64,000 bases of DNA, taken from positions 749,602-813,601 of the forward strand of contig NZ_SNYN01000001.1 of the NCBI RefSeq assembly GCF_004363075.1. Reading direction: 5' to 3'. Of this stretch, positions 5,401 through 57,665 are shown one piece after another (the first letter of the stretch is position 1; the number at the start of each line of letters is the position of its first letter). This stretch comes from Actinorugispora endophytica. Lineage in GTDB: Bacteria; Actinomycetota; Actinomycetes; Streptosporangiales; Streptosporangiaceae. A program made the position numbers and the translations under genes. The notes under the pieces were generated by a model. It searched no databases, was not told the DNA's origin, and saw nothing but the letters and a program-made list of their open reading frames with translations.

Positions 5401-5760
5401 ATGCGCGGTGGGCTTCCGGGGTCGTTGAAGATCGTGCGGGGCCTGCTGTTCACCTACACCGCGATCACCGCCCTGACGGTTCTCGGCGGGTTGCTGGCCT
5501 TCGGGGTGTCCCCCGAGGTCCTGGGGGCACTCGCCTACCTGGCGATACCCGGGACCATCGCCCTGGTCTGCGCACTTCGGACGCCCAGAGGCGGCCGAGG
5601 TCTGCTGTGGGGGATCGTCGTCCTGCAAGTGGTGCTGATTCTGCTGGGGATCGGTCGACTGGGAAACGGTGAGCCCCAAGGGCTGACCAACCTGGTCCTT
5701 CCCGCCCTGGTCCTCTTTTTCGTGCTGCTCAGACCATCCCGGGACCGCCTGAGCGGCTGA
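5401..5760 (+). CDS. Small four-helix membrane protein, unknown function
   Basis: A 119-aa protein, almost entirely four hydrophobic segments (about residues 11-32, 38-57, 66-84 and 95-111) with short basic loops. The start ATG has AGGGGAG 8-14 nt upstream. It lies 51 bp before the toxin gene in the same direction and has no terminator after it, so it may be co-transcribed with the toxin and immunity genes. I do not recognise the family. A role in secretion or membrane anchoring of the toxin is only a suggestion from position. Confidence 0.7.
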   Translation: MRGGLPGSLKIVRGLLFTYTAITALTVLGGLLAFGVSPEVLGALAYLAIPGTIALVCALRTPRGGRGLLWGIVVLQVVLILLGIGRLGNGEPQGLTNLVLPALVLFFVLLRPSRDRLSG

Positions 5761-5811: not shown

Positions 5812-7443
5812 GTGCTGCGCAGAATCCACAGCCCCGATCGCGGTGTGAGCATCACCGAGTACTCCGCAGTCATCGTGCTGGTCGCCGCCATCGTGGCGGC
5901 GCTGTCCAACACCGGCATCACCACGACGATCACCACCTCCCTGTACTCGGGGGTGAACCGGGTTCTCGGTGACGGGAACGCGCTCCCTGACGGCGACGCA
6001 GCCGCAGGCGATCCGGCGAGGGAACCGCTGCCTGCTGCTTCGGTGGGTCCCGACGGCGAGGTCACTTACTCGGGTGACAGCCGCAGCCCTGAGCAGGACC
6101 AGCGCAACGAGTTCCGCCTCGCGTTCAACGGTGGCATCGCTCCTGAGGACGTCGACCCCGACGACTTGGTGAACGAGAACGACGTCGTCATCCCCGACGA
6201 CCACGCCGCAGCCGATGACGAGGGCAAGCCTTGGTGGCTGTCACTCCTGGACGCGCTGGACGGCAGCGCCGGCATTCTCGAACGGTTCGCCGAAGCCCTG
6301 GGCACCAGCGTCTCCAATGACATCCAGGGCATGATCGACTCCCTCACGACCAACCCGGTCGACAGCGTCCTGGGCCTGGTCGACACCATCGTCAACGACC
6401 CGGTCGGCCTGCTGTTCAGCGACGAACTACGCGACACCTGGGCTGAAGGCGACTGGCCCGCCATCATCGGCCATGGTCTGTGGGAGATCGGAAGCTGGCT
6501 CATTCCCGGGGCCGGAGCGGTCATGAAGGTCCTCAAGTTCCTCGGCAAAGGCCCAGACGCACCCGGCCGACCGCCCGACACCGAATCCGGTGGAGGACCG
6601 AACACCGACAGCGAGGACGTTGAGGGTGGCGAGGATCAACCAGACGAGGGAAACGGAGCGGACGAAGGGGATCGGAACTCCGAAAGCACGCCGTGCGCGG
6701 GCAACAGCTTCCCGCCCGGCACCCTCGTTCTGCTGGCCGACGGCACGCACACCCCCATCGAGGCCGTCATGGTCGGGGACGAGGTGTGGGCCACCGACCC
6801 GACCACCGGCGAGTCCGGTCCCCGTGAGGTCACCCGCCTGATCACCGGCAGCGGGGAGAAAACCCTCGTCGAGATCACCGTCACCGACGACACCGGCACG
6901 ACGGGAAGAGTCACCGCCACTGCAGCCCACCCGTTCTGGCTCCCCGACCGCCGACGGTGGGCCGATGCCATCGACCTGGCCCCCGGCGACCGACTGCACA
7001 CCTCCACCGGAGCCCGGGTCCGGATCACCGCGACCGAGTCGCGGCCCGCCACCGACCAGCAGGTGCACAACCTGACCGTCGACGGTCTGCACACCTACCA
7101 CGTGGCAGTTGGTCAGGTGGACGTGCTCGCACACAACAACGGGTGCGGCGTAACCTACACCGACAAACAGCTGCAGAAGAAGTTCAAGCACGCACAGGAT
7201 TTCGGCATTTCAGGCGACTACAGCAGGGCGAAAGCCGACGAGTTCAGAGAGGCCCTCGACAACCACATCGACTCCCCCGGGACGGTCCAGATACAGGGGA
7301 CCTACCACAGGGAACCGGTCACCCACTTCCTCGACCCCAATACCGGCCTCAACGTCATCACGACGAGGAGCGGCGAGTTCATCAGCGGCTGGAAGCTGAG
7401 TCCCGGTCAACTCGCGAACGTCCAGCAGCACGGAGGGCTCTAG
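5812..7443 (+). CDS. Polymorphic toxin: Flp-pilin-like N-terminus, Hint domain, colicin D-type tRNase
   Basis: A 543-aa protein with three clear parts. Residues 1-40 look like a type IVb (Flp) prepilin: a basic leader, Gly11, then VSITEY with Glu at +5 and Tyr at +6, followed by a hydrophobic helix. A middle region ends in an acidic linker (about 250-292). A Hint autoprocessing domain runs from Cys295 (NSFPPGT, PIEAV, ATDPTTGE) to LAHNN near 443. The last 100 residues match the colicin D nuclease (KKFKHAQDFG with His460, GTYHREPV, NPNTGLNV-like, SGWKL), which cleaves tRNA-Arg anticodon loops. The start is GTG. The stop overlaps the immunity start by one base. The pilin-type N-terminus suggests export through a Tad-like machine rather than T6SS or CDI. 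Confidence 0.85.
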   Translation: MLRRIHSPDRGVSITEYSAVIVLVAAIVAALSNTGITTTITTSLYSGVNRVLGDGNALPDGDAAAGDPAREPLPAASVGPDGEVTYSGDSRSPEQDQRNEFRLAFNGGIAPEDVDPDDLVNENDVVIPDDHAAADDEGKPWWLSLLDALDGSAGILERFAEALGTSVSNDIQGMIDSLTTNPVDSVLGLVDTIVNDPVGLLFSDELRDTWAEGDWPAIIGHGLWEIGSWLIPGAGAVMKVLKFLGKGPDAPGRPPDTESGGGPNTDSEDVEGGEDQPDEGNGADEGDRNSESTPCAGNSFPPGTLVLLADGTHTPIEAVMVGDEVWATDPTTGESGPREVTRLITGSGEKTLVEITVTDDTGTTGRVTATAAHPFWLPDRRRWADAIDLAPGDRLHTSTGARVRITATESRPATDQQVHNLTVDGLHTYHVAVGQVDVLAHNNGCGVTYTDKQLQKKFKHAQDFGISGDYSRAKADEFREALDNHIDSPGTVQIQGTYHREPVTHFLDPNTGLNVITTRSGEFISGWKLSPGQLANVQQHGGL

Positions 7444-7709
7444 TGGACATTCCCCTGGCGCCATATGCCGACCTGGCCAGGAGCTACGTCGAAGGGGAAA
7501 TCGAGGCGAGGGCCTTTGAGACGGCCTTCCTGCGGCTCTTCAAAACAGACGAACGCCTTTTCGGTCCAGCCGACTACGAAGCTCTCGAAGAGCTTTTCTG
7601 GGCGGTCGACTCGTACTGCGCCGATCCGGAGCTACGGGACGAGCGCGACCTGGACGAGCCCCAGCTGAGGCGCTACGTCCAGGACTTCCTCGACCGGATC
7701 TCCGCATAG
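7443..7709 (+). CDS. Colicin D-type immunity protein
   Basis: An 88-aa acidic protein beginning with GTG that overlaps the toxin's TAG stop (TAGTG). Its pattern (LARSYVEGEIEARAFETAFL, then a central ELFWAVDSYCADPELRD and a C-terminal LRRYVQDFL helix) follows the helical immunity protein of colicin D. It should bind and neutralise the tRNase domain encoded immediately upstream, and tight translational coupling fits a toxin/antidote pair. The small size, acidity and position all agree; there is no other candidate immunity gene downstream. Confidence 0.85.
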   Translation: MDIPLAPYADLARSYVEGEIEARAFETAFLRLFKTDERLFGPADYEALEELFWAVDSYCADPELRDERDLDEPQLRRYVQDFLDRISA

Positions 7710-8209: not shown

Positions 8210-8275
8210 TCGGTGATCTTGACCTTTTCGGGGCCTCAACCGCTTCCGAGCCCCCGAAAAGGTCAAGATCACCGA
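8210..8275. repeat. Family A palindrome, copy 1
   Basis: Perfect 24-bp arms (8210-8233 and 8252-8275) built on TGATCTTGACCTTTTCGGGG surround an 18-nt loop. The minus strand just to the right (8338-8276) reads MTAFRRITVEPAG, which looks like the start of a DUF433-type antitoxin or similar protein that breaks off at the palindrome. From there to 8553 no complete gene is visible. Confidence 0.85.
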
Positions 8276-9345: not shown

Positions 9346-12300
9346 GTGCGGCGTCGGCAGCGGCTCGGACTACTCCTCCAGCTGTTTCTCGTCCTCGCGG
9401 CGAGCCTTCTCGGGGTCGTCACGAACTACGCGACGAACGACGGCAACGCCCCGTTTCCGCTGAACATCCTCGAACGCGCCGCTCTGCCTGGTCTGGCTCT
9501 ACTGCTCGTGGCACTGGTCATCGGCCACTTCGTCGCCTACCGGTTGGAGAACCCTCCCGACCCCGAGTTGACCTGGGACCGGTCACGCATTCCGTTTCCC
9601 GGTCTGGAGGCGTTCAACGAGGACGAGGCAGCCGTCTTCTTCGGCCGCGACGTCCAGATCAGCGAGGTCGTGCGCCGTCTGCACGAATCGGGAACCGACA
9701 CCCCGGCCCGCTTCGTCACCGTCGTCGGGGCCTCGGGCAGTGGCAAGTCCTCCCTTGTACAGGCGGGGGTGCTCCCGCGGCTCCGCGCGCAGAGATGGAT
9801 GGTTCTCCGGCCGATCGTTCCAGGCACCGATCCCCTCGGTGCACTGGCCCGGAGTCTTTCCGATGTTCTGGACGAATCGGTGGAATCGGTGAGCCGGCGA
9901 CTCCGCAGATCCGAGACGGAGCTGGCTTCGCTGCTGGCCAGAGCTCGGCGTGAGAAAGGACGCAGGCTCGGCCGCACCCTCCTGGTAATCGACCAGTTGG
10001 AGGAGTTGGCCTCGCTCAGCGGGGAACGCGACCGGAACCTGTTCCTGGCCTCTGTTACCGAAGCCTTGCGCCGAGATCGGCATCTGCGGGTCGTCGCGAC
10101 TCTGCGGGTGGAGTTCCTCGGTGACCTGCTCTCCGGTGAGCACTCCCGGCTCTTCACCAGCCCGGTGGCGATCGGCGCCATTGACCGGGCCGGCCTGGCG
10201 GAGGTGATCGAACGTCCCGCTTCGTTGGCGGGCCTGCGGTTGGAGCCAGGACTGATCGAGCGAATCGTGGCCGACACCGGCAGCGGTGACGCGCTCCCCC
10301 TTCTCGCGTATCTGCTCCAGGAGCTCTACCTGAGCGTAGGGGCTGGCCGCACCGCGACCCTGCACGACTACGCGGCTCTGGGCGGAGTAGGGGGCGCGCT
10401 CTCTCGGCACGCCGACCAAGTGGTCGCGGAGCTACGTGATGACGGTGACCCCGCCGAGGTACTGCGCGTGCTGCTGCTCTTCGTGACAGTGACGAGCGAG
10501 GACGCCACCCGGCGACGGGTCCCGTTGGGGAGTTTGGAACCCGCGCAGCGGCGGATCGTGGACGCGTTCGTCGATGCCCGCCTTCTGGTATCCGACGTCC
10601 ACGACGGCAGCCCCACCGCGCAGGTCACCCACGAGGCGCTGTTTCGCCAGTGGGCGCCGCTGCGCCAGGAGGTCCGGACCCACGCCGAACGGCTCAGGCA
10701 ACGCGCCGAACTGGAAAGGTGGGCCGCCGACTGGGAACGGTCCGAACGCAGTCCGGACTACCTGCTCGGCGGTCAGCGGTTGGCCCTCGCCGAGCAGTGG
10801 CTTGACGGCCTGCGGCAGGTGGGGCAGGAGACCTCCGAACTCGTGGCGTTCGTGGAAGCGTCGAAACGCCGTGACCAGGGATTCCTCCTACGTGTGTCCA
10901 AAGGGATCGCCGAATACGTCTTGGCCAACGTCGAGCAGTACCCGGAACTGGCTGTTCTGCTGTCCCTCGCCGCGTTGAGCGAGTGCGCGCCCACACCCGT
11001 GGTCCAACGCGCGCTGATGGCGGCGCTGTCCTTCAGCCATGGGCGTCTGGTACTGAAGGGGCACACGGATACGGTCCGCAACATCGCCTGGTCACCTGAC
11101 GGGACCATGATCGCGACCGCGTCGCGGGACGGGACGGCCCGGGTCTGGGACGCGGAGACCGGTGAGACGACGCGGGATCTCACGGGACACCTGGGGATGG
11201 TGGAAATGGTTGCCTGGTCCCCCGACTCCACCCGTCTGGCCACCGCGTCCCGGGACCGCACGGTGCGGTTGTGGGACGTGGCGACGGGGGAGAGCACGAC
11301 ACGGTTTGCCGACGCGACCGACGTGGTGCGCGGGGTGGCCTGGAGCCCTGACGGTCGCTGGATCGCGGGGGCCTCCCGGGACCGCGTCGTACGGGTGTGG
11401 GAGGTGGCCACCGGGCGCCTCTCGGCAAGTCTGGTCGGTCACGAGGACAATGTCCTCGGCATCAAGTGGTCCCCTGACGGGGATCGGCTGGCAACCGCCT
11501 CACACGATCAAAACGTCATCGTGTGGGACATCATCAGCGCGAAGCCCCAACTGGTTCTGCGAGGGCATCAGGACTTCGTCGAAGGTGTCGACTGGTCACC
11601 GGACGGCCGGTCCATCGCCACGGCTTCAGGGGACCACACGGTCAGGGTATGGGACGCCTCGGACGGGCGGCAGAGCCTCCTGATCCGCGGCCACCGCGAC
11701 CGCGTGTGGAACGTCGTCTGGTCCCCCGACGGAAAAAGCCTGGCCACCGCATCGGCGGACCGAACCGCGCGGGTCTTCTCCGCGTCGGACGCCGACGAGA
11801 AGGCCGTACTGCGGGGACACGATGACGGTGTCTGGGGCGTTGCCTGGTCCCCCGATGGGCGGCGACTGGTGACGGGATCAGAGGACGGGACCGCTCGTGT
11901 GTGGGATCTCATTCCACAGACGGTGGAACGGAAGGTCCACACCTCGCACACCGCATCCGTGACGTCGGTGCGATGCGTCCGGGATTGGGCGGTGATCGTC
12001 AGCGCGGCAGAGGACGGAACCGTTCGGTTGGGTGGACTCGGCGAGAACGACGGTGCGTCCTCCCTTCATCAGCACGGTGGCAAAATCCGCGCTGTCGCGT
12101 GCTCCCCCGACGGGCAACGCTTGGTCTCCTGCGGTATCGACCGCCGAGGGGTGTTGTGGTTCGTCGGTGGCGAACGGCAACCGGTCATCCTCGACCATGA
12201 CAGTGCCATCGTTGAATCGGCGGCCTGGTCGCCTGACGGAACCCGGTTGGCCACCGGTGCCCAGGACCGGTCCATCAGAATCTGGGACGCGTTCGACGGT

Positions 12301-12906
12301 TCTCTTCTCACAGTGCTCACCGGCCACCAGGACTGGGTGGTGGGTCTGGACTGGTCACCCGGCGGAGGGATGATCGCCTCGTCCTCCGACGACCGGACCG
12401 CGCGGGTGTGGGACCTGTCCACGGGACGCGAGCGGTTTGTTCTGCACGGGCACGACAACTGGGTTGACTCGGTGTCGTGGTCACCGGACGAGAGCCACCT
12501 GGTCACCTCCTCGGCCGACTGGACCGCACGGATCTGGAACATCTCAACAGGGACGCAGAGCGCGGTCCTGCGCGGCCACGAAGGCCGGGTGCCGTGCGTG
12601 TCCTGGTCACCCGACGGCACCCGGATCGCCACCGGGTCCTACGACCGGACGGTGCGTTTGTGGGAGCCACGCGACGGTTCCGAGATCGGCGTAATCGGTA
12701 TGCACCGCGATCGGGTGACTTGTGTCGACTGGACATCCGATGCCAGGAGCGTGGTCTCGGGTTCCTTCGACACCACAGTTCGTGTATGGCCCGCCGAGGT
12801 CGATCTGGAGCGGCTCCAGCTCCTGGCGCGGAGACGGGTCTTCCGATCCTTGACGGTGGAGGAACGCCGGGCGCACATGCTGGCCGTCGCCGAGGACGGT
12901 CAGTAG
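9346..12906 (+). CDS. Membrane-anchored nSTAND NTPase with 14 WD40 repeats
   Basis: An 1186-aa protein. Two hydrophobic segments at about 7-27 and 46-65 anchor it in the membrane. A conserved FPGLEAF..FFGRD box and a P-loop NTPase follow (Walker A GASGSGKSS at about 128, Walker B LLVIDQLEEL at about 213), as in the nSTAND family. A helical linker leads to a C-terminal array from about residue 572 with 14 WD40 units (each with an SPDG and a VRVWD-type end), enough for two seven-bladed propellers. Units 8 and 9 are the least regular. STAND proteins act as ligand-gated switches; several bacterial ones are defence sensors, others are signalling proteins in development. The GTG start is preceded by GCGGAG. 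The last 7 bases overlap the convergent NIPSNAP gene. Confidence 0.88.
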   Translation: MRRRQRLGLLLQLFLVLAASLLGVVTNYATNDGNAPFPLNILERAALPGLALLLVALVIGHFVAYRLENPPDPELTWDRSRIPFPGLEAFNEDEAAVFFGRDVQISEVVRRLHESGTDTPARFVTVVGASGSGKSSLVQAGVLPRLRAQRWMVLRPIVPGTDPLGALARSLSDVLDESVESVSRRLRRSETELASLLARARREKGRRLGRTLLVIDQLEELASLSGERDRNLFLASVTEALRRDRHLRVVATLRVEFLGDLLSGEHSRLFTSPVAIGAIDRAGLAEVIERPASLAGLRLEPGLIERIVADTGSGDALPLLAYLLQELYLSVGAGRTATLHDYAALGGVGGALSRHADQVVAELRDDGDPAEVLRVLLLFVTVTSEDATRRRVPLGSLEPAQRRIVDAFVDARLLVSDVHDGSPTAQVTHEALFRQWAPLRQEVRTHAERLRQRAELERWAADWERSERSPDYLLGGQRLALAEQWLDGLRQVGQETSELVAFVEASKRRDQGFLLRVSKGIAEYVLANVEQYPELAVLLSLAALSECAPTPVVQRALMAALSFSHGRLVLKGHTDTVRNIAWSPDGTMIATASRDGTARVWDAETGETTRDLTGHLGMVEMVAWSPDSTRLATASRDRTVRLWDVATGESTTRFADATDVVRGVAWSPDGRWIAGASRDRVVRVWEVATGRLSASLVGHEDNVLGIKWSPDGDRLATASHDQNVIVWDIISAKPQLVLRGHQDFVEGVDWSPDGRSIATASGDHTVRVWDASDGRQSLLIRGHRDRVWNVVWSPDGKSLATASADRTARVFSASDADEKAVLRGHDDGVWGVAWSPDGRRLVTGSEDGTARVWDLIPQTVERKVHTSHTASVTSVRCVRDWAVIVSAAEDGTVRLGGLGENDGASSLHQHGGKIRAVACSPDGQRLVSCGIDRRGVLWFVGGERQPVILDHDSAIVESAAWSPDGTRLATGAQDRSIRIWDAFDGSLLTVLTGHQDWVVGLDWSPGGGMIASSSDDRTARVWDLSTGRERFVLHGHDNWVDSVSWSPDESHLVTSSADWTARIWNISTGTQSAVLRGHEGRVPCVSWSPDGTRIATGSYDRTVRLWEPRDGSEIGVIGMHRDRVTCVDWTSDARSVVSGSFDTTVRVWPAEVDLERLQLLARRRVFRSLTVEERRAHMLAVAEDGQ

Positions 12907-16596: not shown

Positions 16597-16652
16597 GATC
16601 TTGACGTTTTCGGGGTCTCGGACGCGGTTGAGACCCCGAAAACGTCAAGATC
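16597..16652. repeat. Family A palindrome, copy 2
   Basis: Perfect 23-bp arms on GATCTTGACGTTTTCGGGG (16597-16619 and 16630-16652) with a 10-nt loop, starting 31 bp after the ATPase stop. Probably acts as its terminator. Confidence 0.85.
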
Positions 16653-43771: not shown

Positions 43772-43841
43772 CCCCGGTGATCGTGGCCTTTCCGGGGTCT
43801 CGAAGGCGGTTGAGACCCCGGAAAGGCCACGATCACCGGGG
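43772..43841. repeat. Family A palindrome, copy 3
   Basis: Perfect 30-bp arms (43772-43801, 43812-43841) on CCCCGGTGATCGTGGCC with a 10-nt loop, exactly between two convergent genes. Very likely a bidirectional terminator. Confidence 0.88.
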
Positions 43842-56975: not shown

Positions 56976-57665
56976 ATGGTGAAGCGTGGTCACTGGCGGG
57001 AGTCCGACGGCTCTCCCATGAAGACAGCGGACGCCCGCGACATCTGGGCTGAAGAGGCGTACTCGCTGCTCGTTGACGTCGCACGCACCTATCACGCGGT
57101 CATCACCTACAAGGAGCTCGCAGAAAAGGTCCAGAAGACCTCCGGTATCCGCACTTCGGCTCTACTCCGCAACTGGATCGGCGCCGTGCTTGGCGTGGTC
57201 GTCCGTGAAGCGCACCGTCGTGGTGACCCGCCGCTGACCGCTCTGGTGGTGCACAGCGACGACGGCATGGTGGGTGAGGGATACAAGGAGGTTCTCTGGG
57301 TTGCGGGAGAGCCCCCGCTGGAGGACGTTTTCGAGCGCGAGCATCACGCGGCCGAGGCACGGTTGGCTTGCTACCGCCGCTTCGGCGCAACGCTGCCGCC
57401 CGACGGTGGTACGGCGGCACTCGCCCCCCGATTGCAGGCGACCGTTGAGCGCCGACGGCGGGCGGGTCCCCGGGCTGCGGGAAGGTGTCCGTTCCTCCCG
57501 GTGATCTTGACCTTTTCGGGGTCTCAGAGACGGTTGAGACCCCGAAAAGGTCAAGATCACCGGGAGGAACGGACATCGTGGACGCAGGCGCCTCGGACGG
57601 GGCCGGTCACCTGCGTTCATGGGCGTCCGGTCGTGAGAGCGGCCACCGGCTTCGGTCCCGTCTGA
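56976..57665 (+). CDS. Hypothetical protein whose 3' end runs through a palindrome
   Basis: The first 165 codons look genuine: DARDIWAEEAYSLLVDVARTYHAVITYKELAEKVQKTSGI, then a GAVLGVVVREAHRRGDPPLTALVVHSDDG segment. Its layout recalls small alkyltransferase-like or restriction-associated proteins, but I do not recognise the family. From about residue 171 the frame passes through the family A hairpin (57487-57574) and ends 30 codons later, so the native C-terminus has probably been lost or extended. GGGGGG lies before ATG 56976. Confidence 0.5.
   Translation: MVKRGHWRESDGSPMKTADARDIWAEEAYSLLVDVARTYHAVITYKELAEKVQKTSGIRTSALLRNWIGAVLGVVVREAHRRGDPPLTALVVHSDDGMVGEGYKEVLWVAGEPPLEDVFEREHHAAEARLACYRRFGATLPPDGGTAALAPRLQATVERRRRAGPRAAGRCPFLPVILTFSGSQRRLRPRKGQDHREERTSWTQAPRTGPVTCVHGRPVVRAATGFGPV
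57487..57574. repeat. Family A palindrome, copy 4 (40-bp perfect arms)
   Basis: Arms 57487-57526 and 57535-57574 are perfectly complementary over 40 bp around an 8-nt loop. The core is GGTGATCTTGACCTTTTCGG. It lies inside the open frame of the upstream gene. Confidence 0.92.

Follow-up and report, generated by a model that had tools for sequence, protein, structure and literature searches.

The stretch analysed here, called the window below, comprises 64,000 nucleotides of contig NZ_SNYN01000001.1 of Actinorugispora endophytica. Near its beginning lies a unit of three genes, all on the forward strand, which encode a 119-amino-acid (aa) membrane protein, a 543-aa toxin and an 88-aa immunity protein. 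The membrane protein, which we named MemUp (5401..5760, +), belongs to no Pfam family and has four long helices followed by a short C-terminal helix. The next gene (5812..7443, +), with a GTG start and a TAG stop, encodes a pilin-led polymorphic toxin; the gene of the colicin-D type immunity protein (7443..7709, +) has its start overlapping the toxin stop by one base. From the N-terminus, the toxin is made of a predicted prepilin leader, MLRRIHSPDRG (5812..5844, +; residues 1-11), a Flp-type pilin domain (5845..5979, +; residues 12-56), a helical middle region common to its relatives (6232..6561, +; residues 141-250), a Hint (pretoxin autoprocessing) domain (6694..7137, +) and a colicin-D tRNase domain with a KKFKHA motif (7168..7419, +; residues 453-536). 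Between the pilin and Hint domains the protein is of low complexity and helical.

The C-terminal half of the toxin and the immunity protein are assigned by Pfam, above its cut-offs: PT-HINT on toxin residues 306-442 (E 1.6e-15), Colicin_D on residues 453-536 (E 1.4e-21) and Colicin_immun on the 88-aa product (E 1.4e-15). The key residues of Hint domains are all present, namely the nucleophile Cys295, the TxxH motif (Thr370/His373) and the C-terminal His441-Asn442, which correspond to the catalytic residues of such domains; Cys295 and His373 are each kept in 32 of the 35 members of an alignment of relatives, A1, described below. In an alignment with colicin D, KKFKHA stands opposite KKYKHA; this motif presumably contains the catalytic histidine. 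We also modelled the toxin by AlphaFold with 35 relatives as input. The mean predicted local distance difference test (pLDDT) score is 68.5, with values of 85-96 for the Hint part (blocks 301-440) and 81-94 for the tRNase part (451-530). The modelled Hint domain matches Hint/intein structures (PDB 2lwy, TMt 0.89) and the modelled tRNase matches colicin D (PDB 1tfo, TMt 0.80, 40% identity). These results bear out an earlier sequence-only reading of this DNA, which had named the Hint domain, the colicin D tRNase and the corresponding immunity protein; its picture of the unit was right for toxin and immunity but missed the upstream four-helix membrane protein.

The unit shares with colicin D/ImmD (PDB 1v74, 1tfo) the tRNase fold, the KK(F/Y)KHA motif and the immunity family. 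However, a pilin and a Hint domain stand in place of the receptor-binding/import domains of colicin D, and the toxin is no colicin, since only its last ~85 residues match. While the homology of the domains and of the immunity family is clear, it suggests rather than establishes that the toxin cuts tRNA-Arg and that the 88-aa protein protects against it. Among PDB sequences, the best match of the Hint domain is 8w20 (E 3.7e-30), a chain of 1368 residues, presumably part of a Streptomyces umbrella toxin, whose likeness to the window toxin is confined to the Hint part. No export domain of any route listed by Zhang et al. 2012 (PMC3482391) was found on the toxin in Pfam or NCBIfam.

Judged by its sequence, the N-terminus of the toxin is a Flp pilin, as the sequence-only reading had proposed. 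The leader MLRRIHSPDRG is followed by VSITEYSAVIVLVAAIVAAL, with a Gly11-Val12 junction, Glu+5, Tyr+6 and a hydrophobic helix; cleavage after Gly11 is predicted from alignments A1 and A3. When compared with the 84-aa Flp-like protein of the organism's own tad locus, the toxin N-terminus is 46% identical over 56 residues (E 2.4e-7). As the match spans 56 residues, it covers a whole short Flp pilin and goes beyond the mere cleavage motif. The cleavage Gly, Glu+5, Tyr+6 and the helix also align with short Flp pilins from three tad loci. AlphaFold models the pilin part, with low to middling confidence, as one helix with a kink (residues 14-52; helices 14-33 and 36-52); the domain limits given above rest on the match to the own Flp, on these helices and on the alignment. 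The Flp_Fap model of Pfam does not match the window toxin at E up to 10, and among the 35 members of A1 Flp_Fap matches two and DUF4244 four at E up to 0.01.

Pilin-led toxins are a real and widespread class and not a single oddity. A search with toxin residues 1-251 in the 341 genomes of the family to which the organism belongs found matches with E of 1e-3 or less in 71 of them, some of the matches being short Flp pilins. A strict leader scan, which requires Gly/Ala, Glu+5 and a hydrophobic stretch, was then run on 44 stretches and yielded 84 leader open reading frames (ORFs), a few of which are obviously false on inspection. Fifty-nine are of at least 350 aa, and we split these by leader type into A1 (n=35), chosen by eye for an RIHDP-type leader, and A2 (n=24). 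PT-HINT is present in 32 of the 35 members of A1, whose C-termini fall into no fewer than seven toxin families: Toxin-deaminase (5), Colicin_D (2), Ntox24 (2), XOO_2897-deam (2) and one each of Col-Pyo_DNase, RNAse_A_bac, Ribonuclease and Ntox50. In A2, PT-HINT is found in 3 of 24; others have Abhydrolase_8 (3), calpain-like peptidase (2) or EndoU (1). Within A1, the leader averages 75% pairwise identity, Hint 54% and the C-terminal part 17%. Such a conserved leader and Hint with a divergent C-terminus is the pattern of polymorphic toxins, although the scan criteria and the leader-based choice account in part for the 75% leader identity and for G11 and E16 being invariant. An SMI1_KNR4 immunity-type gene follows the deaminase toxin of locus L006; adjacent immunity was otherwise examined at the window only.

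For a test independent of the leader, contigs were searched with one Hint pattern derived from A1, and the best 80 of 570 relatives were taken (79 loci, 93 Hint frames), a tblastn ranking that favours full-length relatives. Of the relatives that bear a species name, Nocardiopsis ansamitocini is the nearest, and it has the unit as well. Glu, Asp, Gln or Asn was accepted at +5. We observed that, among these best 80 of 570, a pilin leader stands in the N-terminal part of 33 of the 34 Hint frames of Nocardiopsidaceae/Allonocardiopsis, with Glu+5 in all 33; the leaderless 34th (L127) is cut by the contig start. Allonocardiopsis is in the same order as Nocardiopsidaceae and has no family in the taxonomy, and Nocardiopsis and a 'Nocardiopsaceae bacterium' record fell outside the taxonomy look-up. 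In the 59 Hint frames of other taxa, mostly very long ORFs, the motif is never found at the N-terminus; seven match far inside, and in four (Actinomadura, one in L171 and three in L178) the leader is clearly akin but lacks Glu+5. RIHDP-like and RWVWRAE-like leaders are the two dominant types among the Hint frames. The sequence-only reading had staked its proposal on homologues that keep the leader, and these exist; the architecture it described is real and is that of a class, and the Glu+5 motif it pointed to holds for the window toxin but is missing in some members. A contig search with the N-terminal half of the toxin, by contrast with the Hint pattern, found no relative. The plasmid collection gave no match with toxin residues 1-251 and none with a partner-fused form (see below), and P0002 had no match among PDB sequences at E up to 1.

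Some further leader ORFs deserve mention. In L264:5846-6919, in L271:5471-6610 and in A2 members, pilin leaders precede a GDSL lipase, a thermolysin-like peptidase, an alpha/beta hydrolase or a calpain-like peptidase; judging by these, the pilin route may carry more than toxins. At L138:9287-10810, in a metagenome-assembled genome of Egibacteraceae, a pilin-leader ORF and a Hint ORF overlap in different frames, which hints, from sequence, at the same architecture with a frameshift.

The upstream protein MemUp is modelled as a confident four-helix bundle (pLDDT 94.8), and fold searches with it gave no match with E under 0.3. A role as a peptidase was considered and rejected by eye; there is no invariant acidic residue, the invariant positions being P6, R13, P101 and R114. 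In the fetched loci we counted 34 distinct MemUp copies (E up to 0.01), 27 of which are followed on the same strand by a leader ORF, at a distance of -3 to 211 bases. Four of the remaining seven (L006:8521, L050, L079 and L123) continue in one open frame; three of these frames clearly reach a Glu+5 pilin leader and count as fusions within the family of the window itself, and L079 is a variant without Glu+5. Weak MemUp matches without a leader ORF are found in L059 and L060.

MemUp occurs in 44 of the 341 genomes of the family and, in a class-wide sample, in 12 of 197. When loci were selected by the partner only, one per genome, a leader ORF was present within 1.7 kb in 26 of 30, with about 0.4 expected from a control rate of 0.014 per 3.4 kb; the +5 residue in these 26 loci is Glu in 24, Asn in one and Ser in one. 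In L206, L207, L209 and L216 the partner and the leader ORF are divergently oriented, and the association is therefore not merely that of one operon. Fused forms were observed in genus g85 of a second family, f18, where the stretches had been chosen for long open frames, which favours such forms: the partner domain is fused before the leader in five of six long leader ORFs (E 2e-27 to 1e-16), and Tox-REase-5 forms the end of four of these five. The partner search gave one more fused-looking frame of this genus (L293). The fused order fits the expected topology, in which the C-terminus of the partner and the leader would both lie inside and leader cleavage would separate them. Linkage and fusion together show that the 119-aa protein belongs to the toxin unit as a partner of the toxin. 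L301, L281 and L291 also have partner-like genes, for which no neighbouring leader ORF was seen; in L291 and L301 they adjoin a response-regulator-like gene (by eye).

The sequence-only reading had advised a search for tad genes and a TadV-like peptidase in the genome. Both kinds of gene are there. The own tad locus, on contig C16, encodes CpaB/RcpC, TadZ, TadE, TadA, TadB, TadC, Flp, a TadG-like protein and a pilin-led NlpC/P60 protein, together with a histidine kinase and a response regulator (by eye). Two further Hint toxins with the same leader lie on C16 at 9-12 kb from tadC, one without an assigned end and the other a Hint-deaminase followed by a SUKH-type gene. The single A24 type IV leader peptidase match in the genome is on C6, beside aroC (identified by eye). 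On C1, about 40 kb upstream of the window toxin, there is another Tad-like locus, which differs from that of C16 and includes a Flp-like ORF of 66 aa. We then measured linkage in 26 genomes chosen for leader matches, counting the ORFs among the matches listed, with lengths taken from leader to stop. A tadC of the same class as that of C16 is present in all 26. Among the matches listed, 22 of 72 long leader ORFs are within 40 kb of that tadC, against 0.90 expected, in 13 of the 25 genomes with such ORFs; these numbers allow no strict P, because the matches are clustered and several genomes are close kin.

Other proteins of the tad loci also have pilin leaders. At L006:12481-13143 (-), a cell-wall hydrolase of about 200 aa of the NlpC/P60 type has its own pilin-type leader, and its homologues are found in L044, L048, L059, L060, L068, L080 and L081; such a pilin-led NlpC/P60 protein may make way for the pilus through the wall, or have the wall of the target as its substrate. 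Tad loci further encode long pilin-leader proteins to which no domain was assigned, at L006:2991-4331 (-), L268:11781-13109 and L274:4137-5507, and those of L268 and L274 seem to have similar C-terminal ends.

Taken together, the window unit is probably an antibacterial toxin-immunity unit in which a type IVc (Flp/Tad) pilin serves as the export domain. Since relatives hold many such toxins, some of them beside pilus-assembly genes, these bacteria may use the pilus to show toxins to their neighbours or to deliver them. The toxin would insert into the membrane with the pilin helix as an anchor, the leader inside and the cargo outside. The upstream four-helix partner would receive or hold it there; in the fused family, cleavage of the leader would remove the partner as well. 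A type IV leader peptidase, for which the genome has a gene and the toxin a cleavage motif, would cut after Gly11, and the Tad motor would then extract the processed toxin as a rare subunit, probably one of the tip, that places the cargo at the cell surface. There, Hint could cut itself at His441-Asn442, residues that the toxin has, and free the last ~100 residues. In the target cell the colicin-D domain would cut tRNA-Arg, from which the 88-aa protein would shield the producer. In its widest form this proposal, which we put forward tentatively, is that of an undescribed actinomycete delivery system, where toxins are themselves pilins, are passed to the Tad motor by a four-helix membrane partner dedicated to them, and ride on a type IVc pilus as warheads that can be swapped; cell walls would be opened by pilin-led NlpC/P60 hydrolases borne by that pilus too.

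Several observations weigh against this proposal. The other 50 of the 72 long leader ORFs among the matches listed lie beyond 40 kb of tadC, including the window toxin, which is on another contig. Co-occurrence with Tad says nothing, as 331 of the family's 341 genomes have T2SSF genes, and was dropped as an argument. In 4 of the 30 partner loci no leader ORF was seen within 1.7 kb, and partner copies without any leader ORF do occur, one of them in the genome of the window at C7:26502. In L054, another of the seven MemUp copies set apart above, the partner comes after the toxin, which has Asn at +5, and after a further small gene, the immunity gene, and not before them. Glu+5 is missing in L023/L054, L178, L171, L224, L228 and one member of G133. 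Finally, we know of no precedent for a cargo of ~490 residues on a Tad pilin.

In an alternative reading, the pilin would be a mere anchor taken from Flp, the four-helix protein, and not the Tad motor, placing or releasing the toxin and Hint freeing it at the surface. The partner is more tightly linked to the toxins than tad is, the second family has forms fused to it, and the window toxin is away from the class-1 tad locus. Yet a plain anchor needs no Gly-1, Glu+5 or Tyr+6, whereas Glu was found in all 33 leaders of the Hint frames even though Asp, Gln and Asn were allowed, and the tad linkage of part of the class would be left without an explanation; we regard this alternative as rather unlikely. 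It is less likely still, and in our view improbable, that the Tad motor is used in the manner of a type II secretion system (T2SS), a pseudopilus stroke extracting the toxin for diffusible release with no pilus display, although Hint would then be a built-in release step and the motor families T2SSE and T2SSF are common to T2SS and Tad. We give very little credit to a role other than attack, such as a pilus-borne sensor or a defence against pilus-binding phages by a nuclease that acts on the producer: a nuclease with an immunity partner can serve as a suicide device, and Tad pili are involved in the adsorption of Caulobacter phages, according to the part of PMC11067988 considered here, but toxins that are exported against competitors are typically recognised by a Hint domain, by C-termini that are polymorphic and by an immunity gene next to them (PMC3482391, in part). 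The GTG start and the lack of a Pfam pilin match on the window toxin could make one think of chance or of an annotation artefact. This is practically negligible, as the leader is kept across genera, is homologous to the own Flp and was recovered through the partner-only selection, while a relaxed leader scan of control DNA gave 4 matches in 1.0 Mb, one of which, in L138, is maybe a true relative.

In the accessible part of Zhang et al. 2012 (PMC3482391), polymorphic toxin systems are described with type II, V, VI, VII, PVC, PrsW, TcdB/TcaC and MuF export routes, and the words pilin, pilus, pili and prepilin do not occur in it. The window unit resembles these systems in its constant N-terminal trafficking part, Hint, variable toxin end and neighbouring immunity gene, and differs from their routes, as far as that part lists them, by the pilin leader; it is a variant of polymorphic toxins with a probably new export route. 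Flp pilins are named in one phrase of PMC12605009 (2025), among the domains and anchoring elements associated with ARC (CD38-like, ADP-ribosyl cyclase) toxins, which is another association of a toxin domain with Flp pilins. The parts of that paper considered here describe neither a class nor a partner protein, nor any tad linkage, Hint or case with colicin D, and which of the 12 figure proteins is meant is left unsaid there. In the Kil system of Myxococcus, a Tad-type pilus is required for contact killing and minor pilins with variable domains are interchangeable tips (PMC12075869, PMC8460266, both in part). There the toxic agent is not identified, and the authors propose that Tip4 associates with a toxin or is toxic itself. 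The tip role that we propose for the toxin is like that of Kil, but the Hint domain and the immunity gene are not mentioned for Kil in those parts. No description of the class, the partner or the tad linkage and route was found in the open-access literature, most subscription papers and bioRxiv preprints being outside the search; the statement of the sequence-only reading that it knew of no described system of this architecture needs only the addition of the one phrase on ARC toxins.

Polymorphic toxins are sorted by their export. If true, export by a pilin that has a membrane partner to itself would add one to the known routes. Two actinomycete families at least, f1 and f18, have such pilin-led toxins. 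The proposal would also give the Tad pili of monoderm bacteria a concrete role in competition and explain the many long 'pilins' in one genome. The question raised by Kil, whether a Tad pilus subunit can itself carry a toxin, becomes testable.

Elsewhere in the window, a 56-base inverted repeat is present in four copies (8215-8270, 16597-16652, 43779-43834 and 57503-57558), and there are eight GATCTTGACCTTTTCGGGG half-sites with up to 3 mismatches, against 0.01 expected. An nSTAND1 NTPase with WD40 repeats, of 1186 aa, is encoded at 9346-12906 (+).
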